In this document: piece by piece, positions 865 through 3,899 of the stretch
How the letters are laid out: each line of letters begins with the position of its first letter
Numbering within the stretch: position 1 is the stretch's first letter
Virus record (IMG/VR): IMGVR_UViG_3300046534_001172
Span: 1-25,128 of that record
Length of the DNA: 25,128 bases
Source: a virus
Reading direction: 5' to 3' (one strand)
Made by a program: the position numbers and the translations under genes
Notes under the pieces: generated by a model
What the model was told of the DNA's origin: nothing
Seen by the model: only the letters and a program-made list of their open reading frames with translations
Databases searched by the model: none

Positions 865-1638
865 CTAAAATTTATTAAATAAATCTCTCTTCTTTCTTTC
901 TATCTCTTCTAGCTTTCTTTTATTCTCATCATCTTCTGAATTTACAATAACTGTTTTACTCCACTTATCATTGTTCTTCATCCAGTTTCTGAATCTAAGC
1001 TTTGGGTCAAATGTTTTCTCTTTCTCCCGTCTTTCCTTTTTTCAATTAATAGATTTCTCTTTCCAGTATAATAAAAATGATTCACACTCTTCTTGAAAGT
1101 CTGTTTTAGTTAAGTTGTATTTATTATATATATCTGAAATAAATTCTAAACTAAAATCATTCTTTATATATGATTCTAGGGTAGCAACTTTAGTTGCGAT
1201 TGAAACTTCCTTATCTATAGACTTAATTATATTATTTTCTTTATTATTATTATTAACCTTATTAGTAGTGGTTACTTGTTGGTTACTTGCTGGTTGCTTG
1301 TTGGTTGCTTGTTGGTTATCTTGCTGGTTATCTCATTGATACTCATTGTAGTTTAATAGCTTAACAATGCTATATTTACTGGTTGGTTTGATGGTTATCT
1401 CGCTGGTTGATTTTAGCTTAGTAAGTGAAGTCCTTATCTGTTGTTCTGATAATCAGGTCTCAGCAGCAAGTGTTATTCTTCATGTTAATAGCTCTCATCT
1501 TTTTATATATATACCTCTCCAATTCTTATCTTTCCAATTAGCTTTTAGTAGTAAATGTATAAATAATGTCTTTGTATTTATATCATCATACCATTCCCAT
1601 TCCAGCATCTTTCTATGAAGCTGTATAAATCATTCCAT
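865..1638 (-). CDS. Replication initiation protein (DnaD/helix-turn-helix type)
   Basis: 257-aa protein beginning MEGFIQLHRKMLEWEWYDDI, the typical opening of phage replisome-organiser proteins. The N-terminal winged-helix region has KTLFIHLLLKANWKDKNWRG, RGELLTGRITLAAETGLSEQ (recognition helix) and IRTSLTKLKSTSEITIK, where a plasmid/phage replication protein binds origin DNA. Residues about 100-130 are a Gln/Asn/Thr-rich linker (DNQQDNQQATNKQ). The C-terminal part has a DnaD-like helical block (YIKNDFSLEFISDIYNKYN ... LYWKEKSINGKK) and FDPKLRFRNWM, used to recruit a helicase or loader. The origin is expected in or near this gene. Regulated by its own promoter and the structured leader. TAG stop. 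Confidence 0.8.
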
Positions 1639-1657
1639 AATTCTATACAATTAAAAA

Positions 1658-1744
1658 CTCATACCTGTAGGCTGTTCCGACTAAAGAGAACCTACAAATA
1701 TGAGTCTTAAATTTGATTGTCGGAACTATTTAATCTCTTTAGTC
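1658..1744 (-). ncRNA. Structured 5' leader RNA element, copy 1
   Basis: Leader between a TATAAT promoter and the replication-initiation gene. In RNA order: a GACTAAAGAGA (1744-1734), linker TTAAATA, b GTTCCGA (1726-1720), spacer, c CTCATATTTGTAGG (1704-1691), a' TCTCTTTAGTC (1689-1679), b' TCGGAAC (1680-1674), conserved AACAGCCTA, c' (1671-1658). Stem a is 11 perfect pairs, b 7, and c 11 pairs (6 plus 5 around a 3x3 internal loop). Same order, same crossing topology and same core words as copy 2 at 3809-3887, but almost none of the paired bases are identical, so the base pairing and not the sequence is conserved. It ends 19 nt before the ATG. Confidence 0.78.
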
Positions 1745-1750
1745 ACGAGT

Positions 1751-1778
1751 ATTATATCATAAACTTAAATAAAAACAA
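1751..1778 (-). promoter_or_regulatory. Promoter of the replication gene
   Basis: -35 TTGTTT (1778-1773), 16-nt spacer, perfect -10 TATAAT (1756-1751), minus strand. Six nt separate the -10 from the leader RNA element at 1744, the same distance as at the other copy. Confidence 0.7.
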
Positions 1779-1806
1779 ATAAAAAGTCTAAAAAACTTAT
1801 CACACC

Positions 1807-1833
1807 TGATACATATAAGCTATACATGTATCA
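1807..1833. promoter_or_regulatory. Inverted repeat, possible operator
   Basis: TGATACAT (1807-1814) and ATGTATCA (1826-1833), perfect 8-bp arms separated by 11 nt, in the untranslated region between the terminator at 1856 and the replication-gene promoter. The right arm overlaps a weak promoter-like pair (TTATGT, 16 nt, TATGAT at 1857-1830). Arm length and centre spacing fit a dimeric repressor site controlling early genes; an origin element is the alternative. The remainder of 1757-1806 is A/T-rich without visible features. Confidence 0.4.
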
Positions 1834-1855
1834 TAACTGTAATATTTTGAGACAT

Positions 1856-1881
1856 AAAAAAAGAGTGTCGATTTAACACTC
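1856..1881 (-). terminator. Intrinsic terminator after the 27-aa ORF
   Basis: Minus strand GAGTGT-TAAATCG-ACACTC followed by seven T: perfect 6-bp stem with 7-nt loop. Confidence 0.85.
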
Positions 1882-1956
1882 AGTCTGTAATCTATACATT
1901 CTTTCTTCTTTCATTTCTCTAGCGTATCTAGTGAGGGCTGTTTCTTCTTTCTTCAT
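1873..1956 (-). CDS. 27-aa peptide ORF
   Basis: MKKEETALTRYAREMKEERM then YRLQTEC: a charged single helix. The TAA stop lies in the loop of a terminator hairpin. It has no TGA and no Shine-Dalgarno, but an A-rich leader (AAGAAATAACT) as in other genes here. It stands as the only ORF of a small unit; it could be a small regulator or merely the leader of an RNA. Plausible rather than certain. Confidence 0.42.
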   Translation of the reverse strand: MKKEETALTRYAREMKEERMYRLQTEC

Positions 1957-1984
1957 AGTTATTTCTTATACATTAAGTATGTAT

Positions 1985-2012
1985 ATTGTATATATTTATG
2001 ATGGCTTTACAA
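1985..2012 (-). promoter_or_regulatory. Possible promoter for the 27-aa ORF
   Basis: -35 TTGTAA (2012-2007), 16-nt spacer, -10 TACAAT (1990-1985) on the minus strand. Both boxes deviate by one to two bases from consensus; supported mainly by the same 16-nt spacing and by its place between a terminator and an ORF that has its own terminator. Confidence 0.4.
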
Positions 2013-2046
2013 TAGGATTATGTAGAGAGTTCGTGAAGATTACAAC

Positions 2047-2070
2047 AAAAAAAGCCCCTTGCAAAGACTT
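2047..2070 (-). terminator. Intrinsic terminator of the 53-nt RNA
   Basis: Minus strand AGTCTTT-GCA-AGGGGCT followed by seven T. The 7-pair stem uses several G-U pairs and a 3-nt loop, so it is weaker as a helix than the others, but the U-tract is good. Confidence 0.65.
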
Positions 2071-2099
2071 TTTATGTAACCACTTATTGTTTATTCTGT
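2047..2099 (-). ncRNA. Candidate 53-nt small RNA
   Basis: Lies between the promoter at 2106-2133 and a terminator at 2047-2070 and has no ATG, so it cannot be an ordinary mRNA. It contains GTTACATA (2080-2073), an exact 8-nt complement of TATGTAAC at the very 5' end of the neighbouring 177-nt transcript (2309-2302), which would allow antisense pairing between the two RNAs. Function unknown. Confidence 0.5.
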
Positions 2100-2105
2100 G
2101 CAACT

Positions 2106-2133
2106 AGTATATTGAGAAATGATTTAAAGTCAA
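2106..2133 (-). promoter_or_regulatory. Promoter for the 53-nt RNA
   Basis: -35 TTGACT (2133-2128), 16-nt spacer, -10 TATACT (2111-2106), minus strand. The -35 overlaps the end of the T-tract of the terminator just upstream. Start predicted near 2099. Confidence 0.7.
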
Positions 2134-2158
2134 AAAAAAAGCCCTAGTAACATAGGGC
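2132..2158 (-). terminator. Strong intrinsic terminator
   Basis: Minus strand GCCCTA-TGTTAC-TAGGGC followed by nine T: perfect GC-rich 6-bp stem, 6-nt loop. The T-run continues directly into the -35 TTGACT of the next promoter. Confidence 0.92.
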
Positions 2159-2174
2159 GAAAGGTCTGTCGGGA

Positions 2175-2288
2175 TTATACTTTTCATAAGACTAACAAGA
2201 TTCTGTTAGAATAGATAGGCTTAATCACCTCCTGAGGTACTGCGTTGGTTTGTTTCCTGTTGTAAAGTGACCGTTTCATAAAACGCAT
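2175..2288 (-). CDS. 37-aa basic peptide ORF in the short transcript
   Basis: MRFMKRSLYNRKQTNAVPQE then VIKPIYSNRILLVLGKV, with one TGA glycine near the end and a TAA stop 16 nt before the terminator hairpin. It starts about 20 nt downstream of the predicted transcript start and has no Shine-Dalgarno, like the other genes here. Basic, with a hydrophobic C-terminus. Being the only ORF in its own transcription unit favours a real early peptide, but its small size leaves the alternative of a noncoding RNA open. Confidence 0.5.
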
Positions 2289-2314
2289 AGAAAGGTCTAC
2301 TGTTACATAGATAT

Positions 2315-2342
2315 ATTATAATAATTTCTGAATTTAATGCAA
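2315..2342 (-). promoter_or_regulatory. Promoter for the 177-nt transcript
   Basis: -35 TTGCAT (2342-2337), 16-nt spacer, perfect -10 TATAAT (2320-2315) on the minus strand, right behind the terminator at 2344-2371. Predicted start near 2308, giving a transcript that ends at the terminator 2132-2158. Confidence 0.75.
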
Positions 2343-2343
2343 C

Positions 2344-2371
2344 AAAAAACTCTTATGTGTCGTAAGAGTTT
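2344..2371 (-). terminator. Intrinsic terminator after the lysis operon
   Basis: Minus strand AAACTCTTA, 7-nt loop, TAAGAGTTT, then TTTG: a perfect 9-bp stem followed by U residues. It separates the 52-aa gene from an independent promoter whose -35 lies 2 nt beyond the stem's tail. Confidence 0.88.
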
Positions 2372-2406
2372 CTTTTGAAATGTATATGTATTATATTGAT
2401 TATCTA

Positions 2407-2565
2407 TTATATATCAACTTCTTCTTTCCCTAGGATCTTATAAACTTTGTTTCTTGTATGTAAAACAACGATTAAAGTTAATCACACTACAGCTATTCAA
2501 GCTACTGTAGTTACAATTAATGTTCATATAACAACATCGGCTAGTTTAGTCTCGAAGTTTTCCAT
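2407..2565 (-). CDS. 52-aa single-pass membrane protein
   Basis: MENFETKLADVVIGTLIVTT then VAGIAVVGLTLIVVL gives one long membrane helix (residues 10-36), followed by a basic HTRNKVYKILG tail and acidic end. Start is the first ATG after the peptidase stop, 7 nt away. Three TGA glycines lie in the membrane segment. It may be a second holin or a membrane anchor for the peptidase; it closes this operon, as a strong terminator follows. Confidence 0.65.
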
Positions 2566-2572
2566 AGGTTGT

Positions 2573-3190
2573 TTAAAAGAAAATATACTTAGTATTCATA
2601 GATAGGTCCTCTAATACTTCTTTTATATCACACTTATAAGTTGAATTCTTTTCCATATAATTATCTATAAACATATCTTTATGATGTTCTTCTGTATTTG
2701 TTTCCCCTCTGGAAATCCATTTTGCTATACAATTGAAATGACCTATTCATCATACAAGGTTAGCATAATCTTTAATATCAATAGACCCATCTCTAGAATC
2801 CTTATAAAATTCTTTATTTACTTTGATTCAAATAACAGCTGCGTACCCTCTATTTATCCAATCGAATAATTCTACTTCATCTTCTTTCTTAAATATAGCT
2901 AAATTTGGTACTTTATATCATCTCTCAAGAGCGTTTTCTTTTACGAATTCTAGTATTGCCTCAATTCAATCAGAACCTCTTCATCCGTTTTTAAATGAGA
3001 ACTTTCATTCCTTCTCTTTTTTTAATGCAATTCCTTTTATATCTGATTCTGATATATCTATTCAGCAGTTATATTTTAAATTTGCAGCAGGTCCGAAATA
3101 AGTGCAGCACATTTTACTCCACACTTCATCTCATTGATTAAGATTGTGAAATAATGCAATATCATTGATTTTATTAAATTTAAATTTCAT
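2573..3190 (-). CDS. Papain/C39-like cysteine peptidase, candidate lysin
   Basis: 205-aa protein. The N-terminal SKMCCTYFGPAANLKYN (Cys28 or Cys29 as nucleophile, followed by an aromatic and helix-forming stretch) and the later VGGIGHFNCIAKW (His151) and FIDNY (Asp176/Asn177) form the order Cys - His - Asn/Asp of papain-like and C39-type peptidases, with the His strand G-H-F followed by hydrophobics. Between them are GSDGIEAILEFVKENALERG and WINRGYAAVIGIKVN, fitting the second half-barrel. No other peptidoglycan-degrading enzyme is visible near the holin, so this may be the endolysin; alternatively it processes virion proteins or acts on host proteins. It begins 2 nt after the HNH stop and contains many TGA glycines. 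Confidence 0.58.
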
Positions 3191-3192
3191 GG

Positions 3193-3795
3193 TTATTTAG
3201 TTAATTCTAAAGCTTTTTCATAAGTCCATCATAGCCTATTTATTCTTCCAAAAACAGTTGAGGGGTTAATATCCAATTCCTCACACCATTGTGTAATACA
3301 TTTTCATTTATATAAATGATTTGTTCTTCTATTCCTCATCTGTTCTTTTCTAGTAGCCCATCTACAATTTGACTTACAATAATTTCAATTATTATCGACT
3401 CGATCTATTTCTAAAGTATCTGAATATCATTCAGACATATCTTTATAAAAATATTCAAAAGATCCCCATTCGCATTTAATTCATCTTCATCAGTAATGAT
3501 GATAACTAGTACTATTTGTATTATTACATCTTTCTTTTATTAATCAAAATATTTTATATATTCTTGACCTACTAAGTCAATGTTTTAATCATGGTCTTAT
3601 TGATTTTATTCTTTCTTTAGCTTTTTCTGATGAATAACACCCACATGATATTATATCTCAAGATCTTATGTGTCATAATTTAATATATTTTATAATTCAA
3701 CATTCACATAGACATTTAATTTTATCTTTACAATAAATATTTCAGCCTACTAATAATATAAGCCTTCAGTATTTATCTCATTCTTTTACGTGCAT
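3193..3795 (-). CDS. HNH homing-type endonuclease
   Basis: 200-aa nuclease of the widespread phage class with YGGRGI (about residues 101-106), EIDRVDNNGNY and NCRWATRKEQMRNRR. Together these form the beta-beta-alpha metal-type active site with the conserved NCRWAT. The N-terminus carries a Cys-rich module (KIKCLCECGIIKYIK ... SGDIISCGC), probably a structural zinc or DNA-binding element. The C-terminus is a helix-turn-helix like those following homing nucleases (CITQWCEELDINPSTVFGRI, GWTYEKAL). Such genes are mobile and often sit freely between phage genes. Glycines in YGGRGI are TGA, so the gene is adapted to the same code and is not a recent arrival from a standard-code phage. Confidence 0.85.
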
Positions 3796-3808
3796 AAGAG
3801 TATACTTA

Positions 3809-3887
3809 AATAAGTTTATAAATTAGGCTGTTTTGGATAGAACCCTCTTTATAAACTTATTAAAATACCAAAACATTTAATCTATCC
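3809..3887 (-). ncRNA. Structured 5' leader RNA element, copy 2
   Basis: Leader between a TATAAT box and the HNH gene. In RNA order (minus strand) it has stem a GGATAGA (3887-3881), linker TTAAAT, stem b GTTTTGG (3868-3874 on plus as CCAAAAC), stem c TTTATAAACTTATT arm (3848-3861), then a' (3835-3841), b' (3830-3836), conserved AACAGCCTA, and c' (3809-3822). Stem c is a perfect 14-bp helix; a is 7 bp, b is 7-8 bp. a' and b' sit inside the loop of c and overlap by 2 nt, so the stems cross: either a compact multi-pseudoknot or a switch between alternative folds. It ends 13 nt before the ATG. The core words (GATTAAAT, GGTTCT, AACAGCCTA) match copy 1 while stem sequences differ. No known RNA family recognised. 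Confidence 0.75.
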
Positions 3888-3893
3888 ATATAT

Positions 3894-3899
3894 ATTATA
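3894..3899 (-). promoter_or_regulatory. -10 box of HNH-gene promoter
   Basis: Perfect TATAAT on the minus strand exactly 6 nt before the leader RNA element at 3887. The -35 position (TTCCAA, 16-nt spacer) is poor. The same TATAAT-to-element distance occurs in front of the second copy at 1744, so transcription probably begins at the first G of stem a in both. Confidence 0.6.

Follow-up and report, generated by a model that had tools for sequence, protein, structure and literature searches.

We report a leader RNA that occurs twice in a 25,128-nucleotide (nt) stretch of viral DNA (IMG/VR record IMGVR_UViG_3300046534_001172, positions 1 to 25,128; hereafter, the window) and is predicted to be built from three mutually crossing helices (segment order a-b-c-a'-b'-c', the ABCABC or 'pseudotrefoil' arrangement) that join at a single three-way junction whose core is conserved. 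The window is a fragment of a phage that uses genetic code 25 (TGA = glycine), with good opening of its reading frames under this code only, and part of a longer record (IMGVR_UViG_3300047667_000926) is 99.98% identical to it. Judged from sequence, the leader is present as six independent copies across five code-25 phages, whose hosts, assigned by genetic code alone, are expected to be Absconditabacteria/Gracilibacteria. Replication genes lie behind four of the copies and HNH-type nuclease genes behind two. We are nearly certain that these copies constitute a genuine family of structured RNAs, one previously unlisted, and its most likely role is that of a switch or gate on the production of DNA-replication or DNA-cutting proteins. 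It is rare for a conserved RNA to contain three long helices that cross one another, and such a fold is invisible as a whole to standard covariance searches; the family was traced from two copies in one phage and upheld by four more. For viruses of uncultured candidate-phyla bacteria without Shine-Dalgarno (SD) signals, it supplies a regulatory RNA that is concrete and open to test.

Crossing helices in six covarying leaders

Both window copies are on the minus strand, each with its own TATAAT box and the same segment order: copy 1 (w1, 1744-1654) heads a gene for a DnaD-like helicase loader and copy 2 (w2, 3887-3809) a gene for an HNH endonuclease (Table 1). An earlier sequence-only reading of the window had described two leaders around shared core words, and we located these words in both copies (GATTAAAT at 1735 and 3882, GGTTCT at 1692 and 3844, and AACAGCCTA at 1676 and 3832). 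The same reading placed the leader start 6 nt after TATAAT, which is exact for both copies, and named the downstream genes as a replication initiator and an HNH nuclease, in agreement with their matches to PHROG 2514 and PHROG 374. It was right about the three crossing pairs and too short in their lengths, which it gave as 11/7/11 and 7/7-8/14 base pairs (bp): helices a/b/c span 11/8/18 bp in copy 1 (with c extendable to 22 bp) and 7/7/3+14 bp in copy 2, where c has a small internal loop. Its statement that nearly all paired bases differ between the copies holds for the outer pairs but not for the junction-proximal AGA:TCT, GTT:AAC and GG:CC, which are common to both.

To score the fold we wrote a descriptor for three crossing helices in a-b-c-a'-b'-c' order. 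None of 2000 dinucleotide-preserving shuffles reached the observed triple-helix total in any of the six leaders (copy 1, 40.5 and copy 2, 31.5, against a shuffle maximum of 27.5), while the observed totals of two control leaders were reached by some of their shuffles (35 and 837 of 2000). When the core was given a small bonus, the scores of the six copies were 43.5-54.5, compared to 34 at most in controls comprising 2.4 Mb of unrelated viral and genome DNA, scanned in both orientations, and 1.5 Mb of code-25 DNA after shuffling. Because four copies were already known when the bonus was chosen, the bonus-free shuffle test is the cleaner of the two. Among the matches listed, some 180 loci carried the core words by chance and none had the fold (best score, about 21.5). 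Swapping partner strands between copies lowered the paired fraction of a/b/c from 1.00/1.00/0.90 to 0.58/0.40/0.52, and only 2 (a), 1 (b) and 1 (c) of the 720 possible strand reassignments attained the true pairing total. Although most bases differ, all pairs are Watson-Crick in helix a (52/52) and helix b (46/46), that is, 98/98 over the six copies.

AT-rich sequence of this kind forms weak helices readily, as the noise hits of the descriptor illustrate, and the pairings could in principle be chance complementarity or a DNA-level repeat array with no RNA structure. The shuffle, partner-swap and collection controls contradict this explanation and make it a negligible one. Helix c, with 14 G-U pairs and no A-C pairs on the transcript strand over the six copies, also speaks against it, though this strand bias is only suggestive because the search tolerated G-U. 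The earlier claim of selection on RNA structure is thus borne out by the shuffle and partner-swap tests and by the new homologues, all four of which keep the three pairings, the test named beforehand as the deciding one.

One of these homologues, in the phage we call G001 (L002:5084-5173; IMGVR_UViG_3300023313_000019), was a word-pattern match. It precedes a DUF6291 gene in a replication cluster, and its phage has only a handful of genes in common with the window phage. We also sought code-25 phages with protein motifs in which the conserved glycine is written as TGA (terminase WHRRAGKD and loader KANxxDxxWxG). Together, these searches yielded three further copies: G014 (L326:11722-11811), which precedes a loader 50% identical to that of the window phage; G022/G024 (L334/L349), two identical leaders counted once, which precede a loader gene; and G021 (L353; G021:27392-27301, minus strand), which precedes a NUMOD4-HNH-type gene. 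The terminase motif led us to 16 code-25 records besides the window phage, one of which (G014) has the element. A nested covariance model restricted to helix c (R1) recovered copy 2 at E=0.11 only and the G021 copy at 1.8e-8. Word patterns run against viral contigs returned, among the matches listed and beyond the two known phages, chance matches only, none of them folding. The outcome was the same for a narrow word pattern in 84,980 bacterial and archaeal genomes, where the narrowness of the words means that divergent host-genome copies may still exist. Homologous replication genes in other database phages have, where annotated (locus L363 is not), an upstream gene so close by that there is no room for a leader. 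Relatives retrieved by terminase alignment were not code-25 phages, probably because back-translation of glycine omitted TGA. As a separate methodological observation, degenerate DNA patterns with TGA for a conserved glycine retrieve recoded phages from large collections, whereas back-translation without TGA misses them.

The conserved bases of the family are confined to the junction when the fold is read as a three-way junction (a-J-b, b'-J-c', c-J-a'). The 5' strands of helix a (GACTAAAGAGA, GGATAGA, GACTAAGAGA, GATAGT, GTGTTGTC and GCTAAAGACA) each have an exact complement in place, and the strands of b and c covary likewise with their complements retained. Helix lengths range over the family from 6 to 11 bp (a), 7 to 8 bp (b) and 14 to 22 bp (c). 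By contrast, the strand between a and b (J_ab) is UUAAAUA, UUAAAU (in three copies), CGAAAGU or GUAAAG, following the pattern NNAAA(U/G); the strand between c and a' (J_ca) is U in all six; the strand between b' and c' (J_bc) is AG, except for CG in G022; and c is closed by GG:CC. The predicted helix energies are -4.5 to -14.2 (a), -5.9 to -14.6 (b) and -14.0 to -28.5 kcal/mol (c), and helix c is the dominant nested fold in ViennaRNA (z of -5.3, -3.6 and -5.0 in three copies).

Segments a' and b' abut in the loop of c, with an overlap of 2-3 nt in five copies, including both in the window, and a 5-nt gap in G014. Such an overlap prevents both from pairing at full length at once. The sequence-only reading had posed a choice between a complex pseudoknot and a switch between c and a+b. 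This choice is not forced: a rigid A-form model with stretchable linkers accommodates the three helices simultaneously and free of clashes in each of the six copies, the linkers being almost fully stretched, as a feasibility check that ignores linker sterics, ions and threading. Furthermore, as the segments are transcribed in the order a, b, c, a', b', c', pairing of a and b can precede the closing of c.

Placement at the 5' end and control of translation

The element is about 90 nt long, fills almost the entire 5' untranslated region (UTR) and ends at the initiation region. Helix a starts 6 nt after the end of TATAAT or its equivalent in four copies, 7 nt after it in G021 and about 18 nt after it in G014. 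Hence, no more than 1 nt separates the beginning of the element from the predicted transcription start in five of the six copies, in support of the earlier assignment to the 5' end of transcripts. The foot of c is about 10-16 nt from the start codon in every copy. In G001 and G002, the regions ahead of 89 genes almost all lack an SD sequence and have a TTAA/TAA peak at -16 to -13, and TTAA is found at the base of c in w1, w2, G001 and G021. The same upstream regions show strong depletion of G from -23 to -7, and the peak and the depletion may together form an initiation signal. A role for the leader as an SD replacement was rejected, since SDs are nearly absent from the genes of these phages.

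Because the leader keeps a constant distance from the start codon and helix c has the TTAA initiation motif at its foot, we tentatively favor, at a confidence that stops a little short of probable, a new family of cis-acting 5'-UTR pseudoknots that would gate translation in code-25 phages. During transcription, a and b would base-pair within the loop of hairpin c as it forms, and the captured 5' end would lock c as a stable pseudoknot. Locked in this way, c could abut or cover the TTAA initiation region of the SD-less mRNA and limit loading of the 30S subunit, so that expression of a dosage-sensitive first gene is kept low or timed. The junction might then be opened or re-set, by a protein, an RNA or a ligand, to permit expression. 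The structure, position and gene association of the leader can be read from the sequence, whereas restriction of 30S access by c and the existence of an opener are what we infer from them. Riboswitch-like, autoregulated, processing and ribozyme functions had been listed earlier as options only; we favor translational gating and leave the remainder undecided.

Several observations weigh against gating. A gap of 10-16 nt might leave the initiation region free and c non-repressive, and the conserved unpaired bases of the junction suggest more than a passive block. The leader of G022 has no TTAA, the G014 copy begins about 18 nt past its -10 box, and the family numbers six copies only. In addition, we found no trans-acting gene common to all carrier phages.

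The same placement could serve to protect the transcript. In this alternative, the pseudoknot buries the 5' triphosphate in helix a, blocks a pyrophosphohydrolase or 5'-to-3' exonuclease and stabilizes the mRNA, perhaps in the manner of 5'-terminal stabilizers or exonuclease-resistant RNAs. The first base of helix a is exactly the seventh nt after TATAAT in four copies and the eighth in a fifth, so the predicted +1 would be base-paired, and the element occupies nearly the whole 5' UTR, as a protector might. Yet about 10 unpaired nt precede a in G014, simple hairpins would be enough for protection with no need for a conserved junction, and the constant distance to the start codon is left unexplained. 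We consider protection unlikely.

Related RNAs and alternative roles

The leader matches no Rfam family, in line with the sequence-only reading, which had recognized no known family in it. None of the 4227 models of Rfam release 15 matched w1, w2, G001 or G022/G024 above the gathering threshold, and nothing came near threshold for G014 and G021 in E-value mode. Nor did we find such an element described for phages of Absconditabacteria or Gracilibacteria in the open-licence literature searched. The pistol ribozyme, suggested by the presence of UUAAAUAGUU in a pistol sequence, was rejected for its mismatched strand topology.

At the junction, the strands measure 6-7, 2 and 1 nt, against 7, 3 and 1 nt in the hammerhead ribozyme. 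Non-circularly permuted hammerheads of two types (CSG and SGC) have been described, and type CSG is experimentally active (Eckert et al., 2023; PMC10085705). Its order (stem I - core - stem II ... stem III' - core - stem I' ... stem II' - core - stem III) gives three stems of one three-way junction (PMC10085705) in the identical ABCABC arrangement seen in all six leaders, and type CSG is the closest structural relative. The leader differs in having neither CUGAnGA nor GAAA, in closing c by G-C rather than by the U-A of stem III, in its much longer stem c and in its location at +1 of phage mRNAs, ahead of genes. Lacking the hammerhead core, it is not a type-CSG hammerhead; what it does is extend the strand connectivity of the permuted hammerhead to natural mRNA leaders.

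This connectivity raises the possibility that the leader represents a new class of self-cleaving ribozyme, in which a three-way junction in non-circularly permuted form would carry a catalytic core, with a plausible cleavage site at J_ca. The shared order with an experimentally active ribozyme (PMC10085705), the similar junction strands and the gathering of conserved bases at the junction while the stems covary are consistent with such a role. On the other hand, the hammerhead motifs are not present, few unpaired bases are invariant (AAA, U, G), four of the six copies match no Rfam ribozyme even at relaxed E-values, and cleavage within a 5' UTR has no evident use. We regard self-cleavage as quite unlikely. 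A broader formulation, in which an ABCABC non-circularly permuted three-way junction unrelated to the hammerhead carries a catalytic or a ligand- or protein-sensing core for the control of replication and homing-nuclease genes, is possible, if somewhat unlikely; if true, it would be the second natural instance of such a permutation, in phages of recoded bacteria. A separate alternative is a metabolite or ion riboswitch, with a small ligand at the junction stabilizing the pseudoknot. Although variable stems around the conserved core of a three-way junction, close to a start codon, would suit a riboswitch, the phage replication and HNH nuclease genes under control have no metabolite in common, and the element has so far been seen in code-25 phages only (the narrow-word scan of the genome collection gave no structural match). 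These points make a riboswitch distinctly improbable.

Other phage RNAs resemble the leader in position or context, and those of gene 32 and of the homing endonucleases offer precedents for a translational gate. Gene 32 of phage T4, which encodes the single-stranded DNA-binding protein (SSB) of replication, has a 5'-terminal pseudoknot operator followed by UUAAA repeats (PMC535899). The autoregulatory T4/RB69 gene 32 operators and the leader have in common a 5'-terminal pseudoknot, an unstructured A/U-rich initiation region with UUAA and a phage replication protein, the latter in four of six copies, as the other two precede HNH-type nuclease genes. The T4 pseudoknot is, however, about 28 nt long, whereas the leader is a three-helix ABCABC fold of about 90 nt before several unrelated genes, and no copy has an SSB gene directly downstream. 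Similarly, RNA hairpins sequester or abut the ribosome binding site (RBS) of phage homing endonuclease genes, HNH mobE included (PMC2988022). These hairpins (I-TevI, mobE, seg43(25)) also place a stable RNA over or beside the initiation region of a nuclease gene, but they are simple and act on specific transcripts, while the loop of the leader's hairpin would be captured by the 5' end. The pseudotrefoil class accounts for 51 of 1939 pseudoknotted RNA STRAND structures analyzed (PMC3390330); it is a topology and not a family, to which the leader adds long helices conserved as a regulatory leader.

Antitermination is a further alternative. The put RNA of phage HK022 occurs as copies at two promoters of one phage. 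A put-like antiterminator, which would act on RNA polymerase where early operons begin, would account for two copies at two promoters of the window phage, each 5'-terminal in its transcript, as in HK022. Like the leader, HK022 put (PMC9378689) is a structured, cis-acting phage RNA of early transcripts. While put contacts RNA polymerase and thereby suppresses pausing and termination, the leader is near, and tied to, the start codon of the first gene. Antitermination is disfavored because we found no coding-strand intrinsic terminator in 12.7 kilobases (kb) past copy 1 (in the longer record) or 5.6 kb past the G001 copy, and we rate it highly improbable. Helix c was separately considered as an intrinsic terminator or attenuator and rejected: its loops are about 15-22 nt, and c is followed by no clear U-tract in w2 and by no U-tract at all in G022.

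Coordinates and neighboring features

Table 1. Components of the two window leaders and the genes they precede (window coordinates; J, junction strand).
Feature	Position	Strand	Basis or partner
Copy 1 promoter: -10 TATAAT (1756-1751) and 6-nt discriminator (1750-1745)	1745..1756	-	sequence; equal 6-nt spacing in w2, G001, G022
Copy 1 strand a, GACTAAAGAGA; first base is the predicted +1	1734..1744	-	pairs with 1679-1689
Copy 1 J_ab, TTAAATA; AAA conserved	1727..1733	-	six-copy comparison
Copy 1 strand b, GTTCCGAC	1719..1726	-	pairs with 1674-1681
Copy 1 strand c, 18-bp core; 3' end GG	1691..1708	-	pairs with 1654-1671
Copy 1 J_ca, T	1690	-	invariant, 6/6 copies
Copy 1 strand a', TCTCTTTAGTC; last 3 nt common with b'	1679..1689	-	pairing with a
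Copy 1 strand b', GTCGGAAC	1674..1681	-	pairing with b
Copy 1 J_bc, AG	1672..1673	-	[A/C]G in 6/6 copies
Copy 1 strand c', CC at start; 15 nt from its end to ATG	1654..1671	-	pairing with c
Copy 1 gene: DnaD-like helicase loader / replication initiator, ATG 1638	865..1638	-	PHROG 2514, E=4.7e-27
Copy 2 promoter: -10 TATAAT (3899-3894) and 6-nt discriminator	3888..3899	-	sequence
Copy 2 strand a, GGATAGA	3881..3887	-	pairs with 3835-3841
Copy 2 J_ab, TTAAAT	3875..3880	-	six-copy comparison
Copy 2 strand b, GTTTTGG	3868..3874	-	pairs with 3830-3836
Copy 2 strand c, 14 bp + 2x2 internal loop + 3 bp; 3' end GGG	3843..3861	-	pairing with c'
Copy 2 J_ca, T	3842	-	six-copy comparison
Copy 2 strand a', TCTATCC	3835..3841	-	pairing with a
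Copy 2 strand b', CCAAAAC	3830..3836	-	pairing with b
Copy 2 J_bc, AG	3828..3829	-	six-copy comparison
Copy 2 strand c'; 13 nt from its end to ATG	3809..3827	-	pairing with c
Copy 2 gene: HNH endonuclease, ATG 3795	3193..3795	-	PHROG 374, E=1.3e-52

Two genes recur in the neighborhood of the leader. A 136-amino-acid protein with a C-x5-H-x7-C-x-C motif is encoded one or two genes downstream of the replication gene behind the leader in the window phage (174-584, minus strand) and in G001 (L002:5897-6307); the two proteins are 46% identical, and no further relative was found in viral contigs, nor any match in Pfam or PHROG. A second gene, putatively YopX-like, immediately precedes the promoter of the element in G001 (G001:30459-30812) and G021 (G021:27565-27966) and is within about 1.4 kb of it in G022 (G022:18740-19180). 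Homologues are present in four of the five carrier phages, compared to one of ten other code-25 records.

Two additional RNAs of these phages are worth recording. The window encodes a probable small RNA (2312-2128, minus strand) that has a separate TATAAT and a strong terminator (2158-2141), though a folding z of only -1.0. It contains AGGAGGTGAT, a perfect complement of the usual 3' end of 16S rRNA, in a phage nearly free of SD sequences. The replication gene of G021 has a different structured leader (L332, minus strand, about 125 nt before the ATG), which likewise starts just after TATAAT. Its helices (12/8/16 bp; 0 of 1000 shuffles) follow the kissing-hairpin order a-b-a'-c-b'-c', apparently another case in which the loop of an RBS-side hairpin is captured by upstream RNA.

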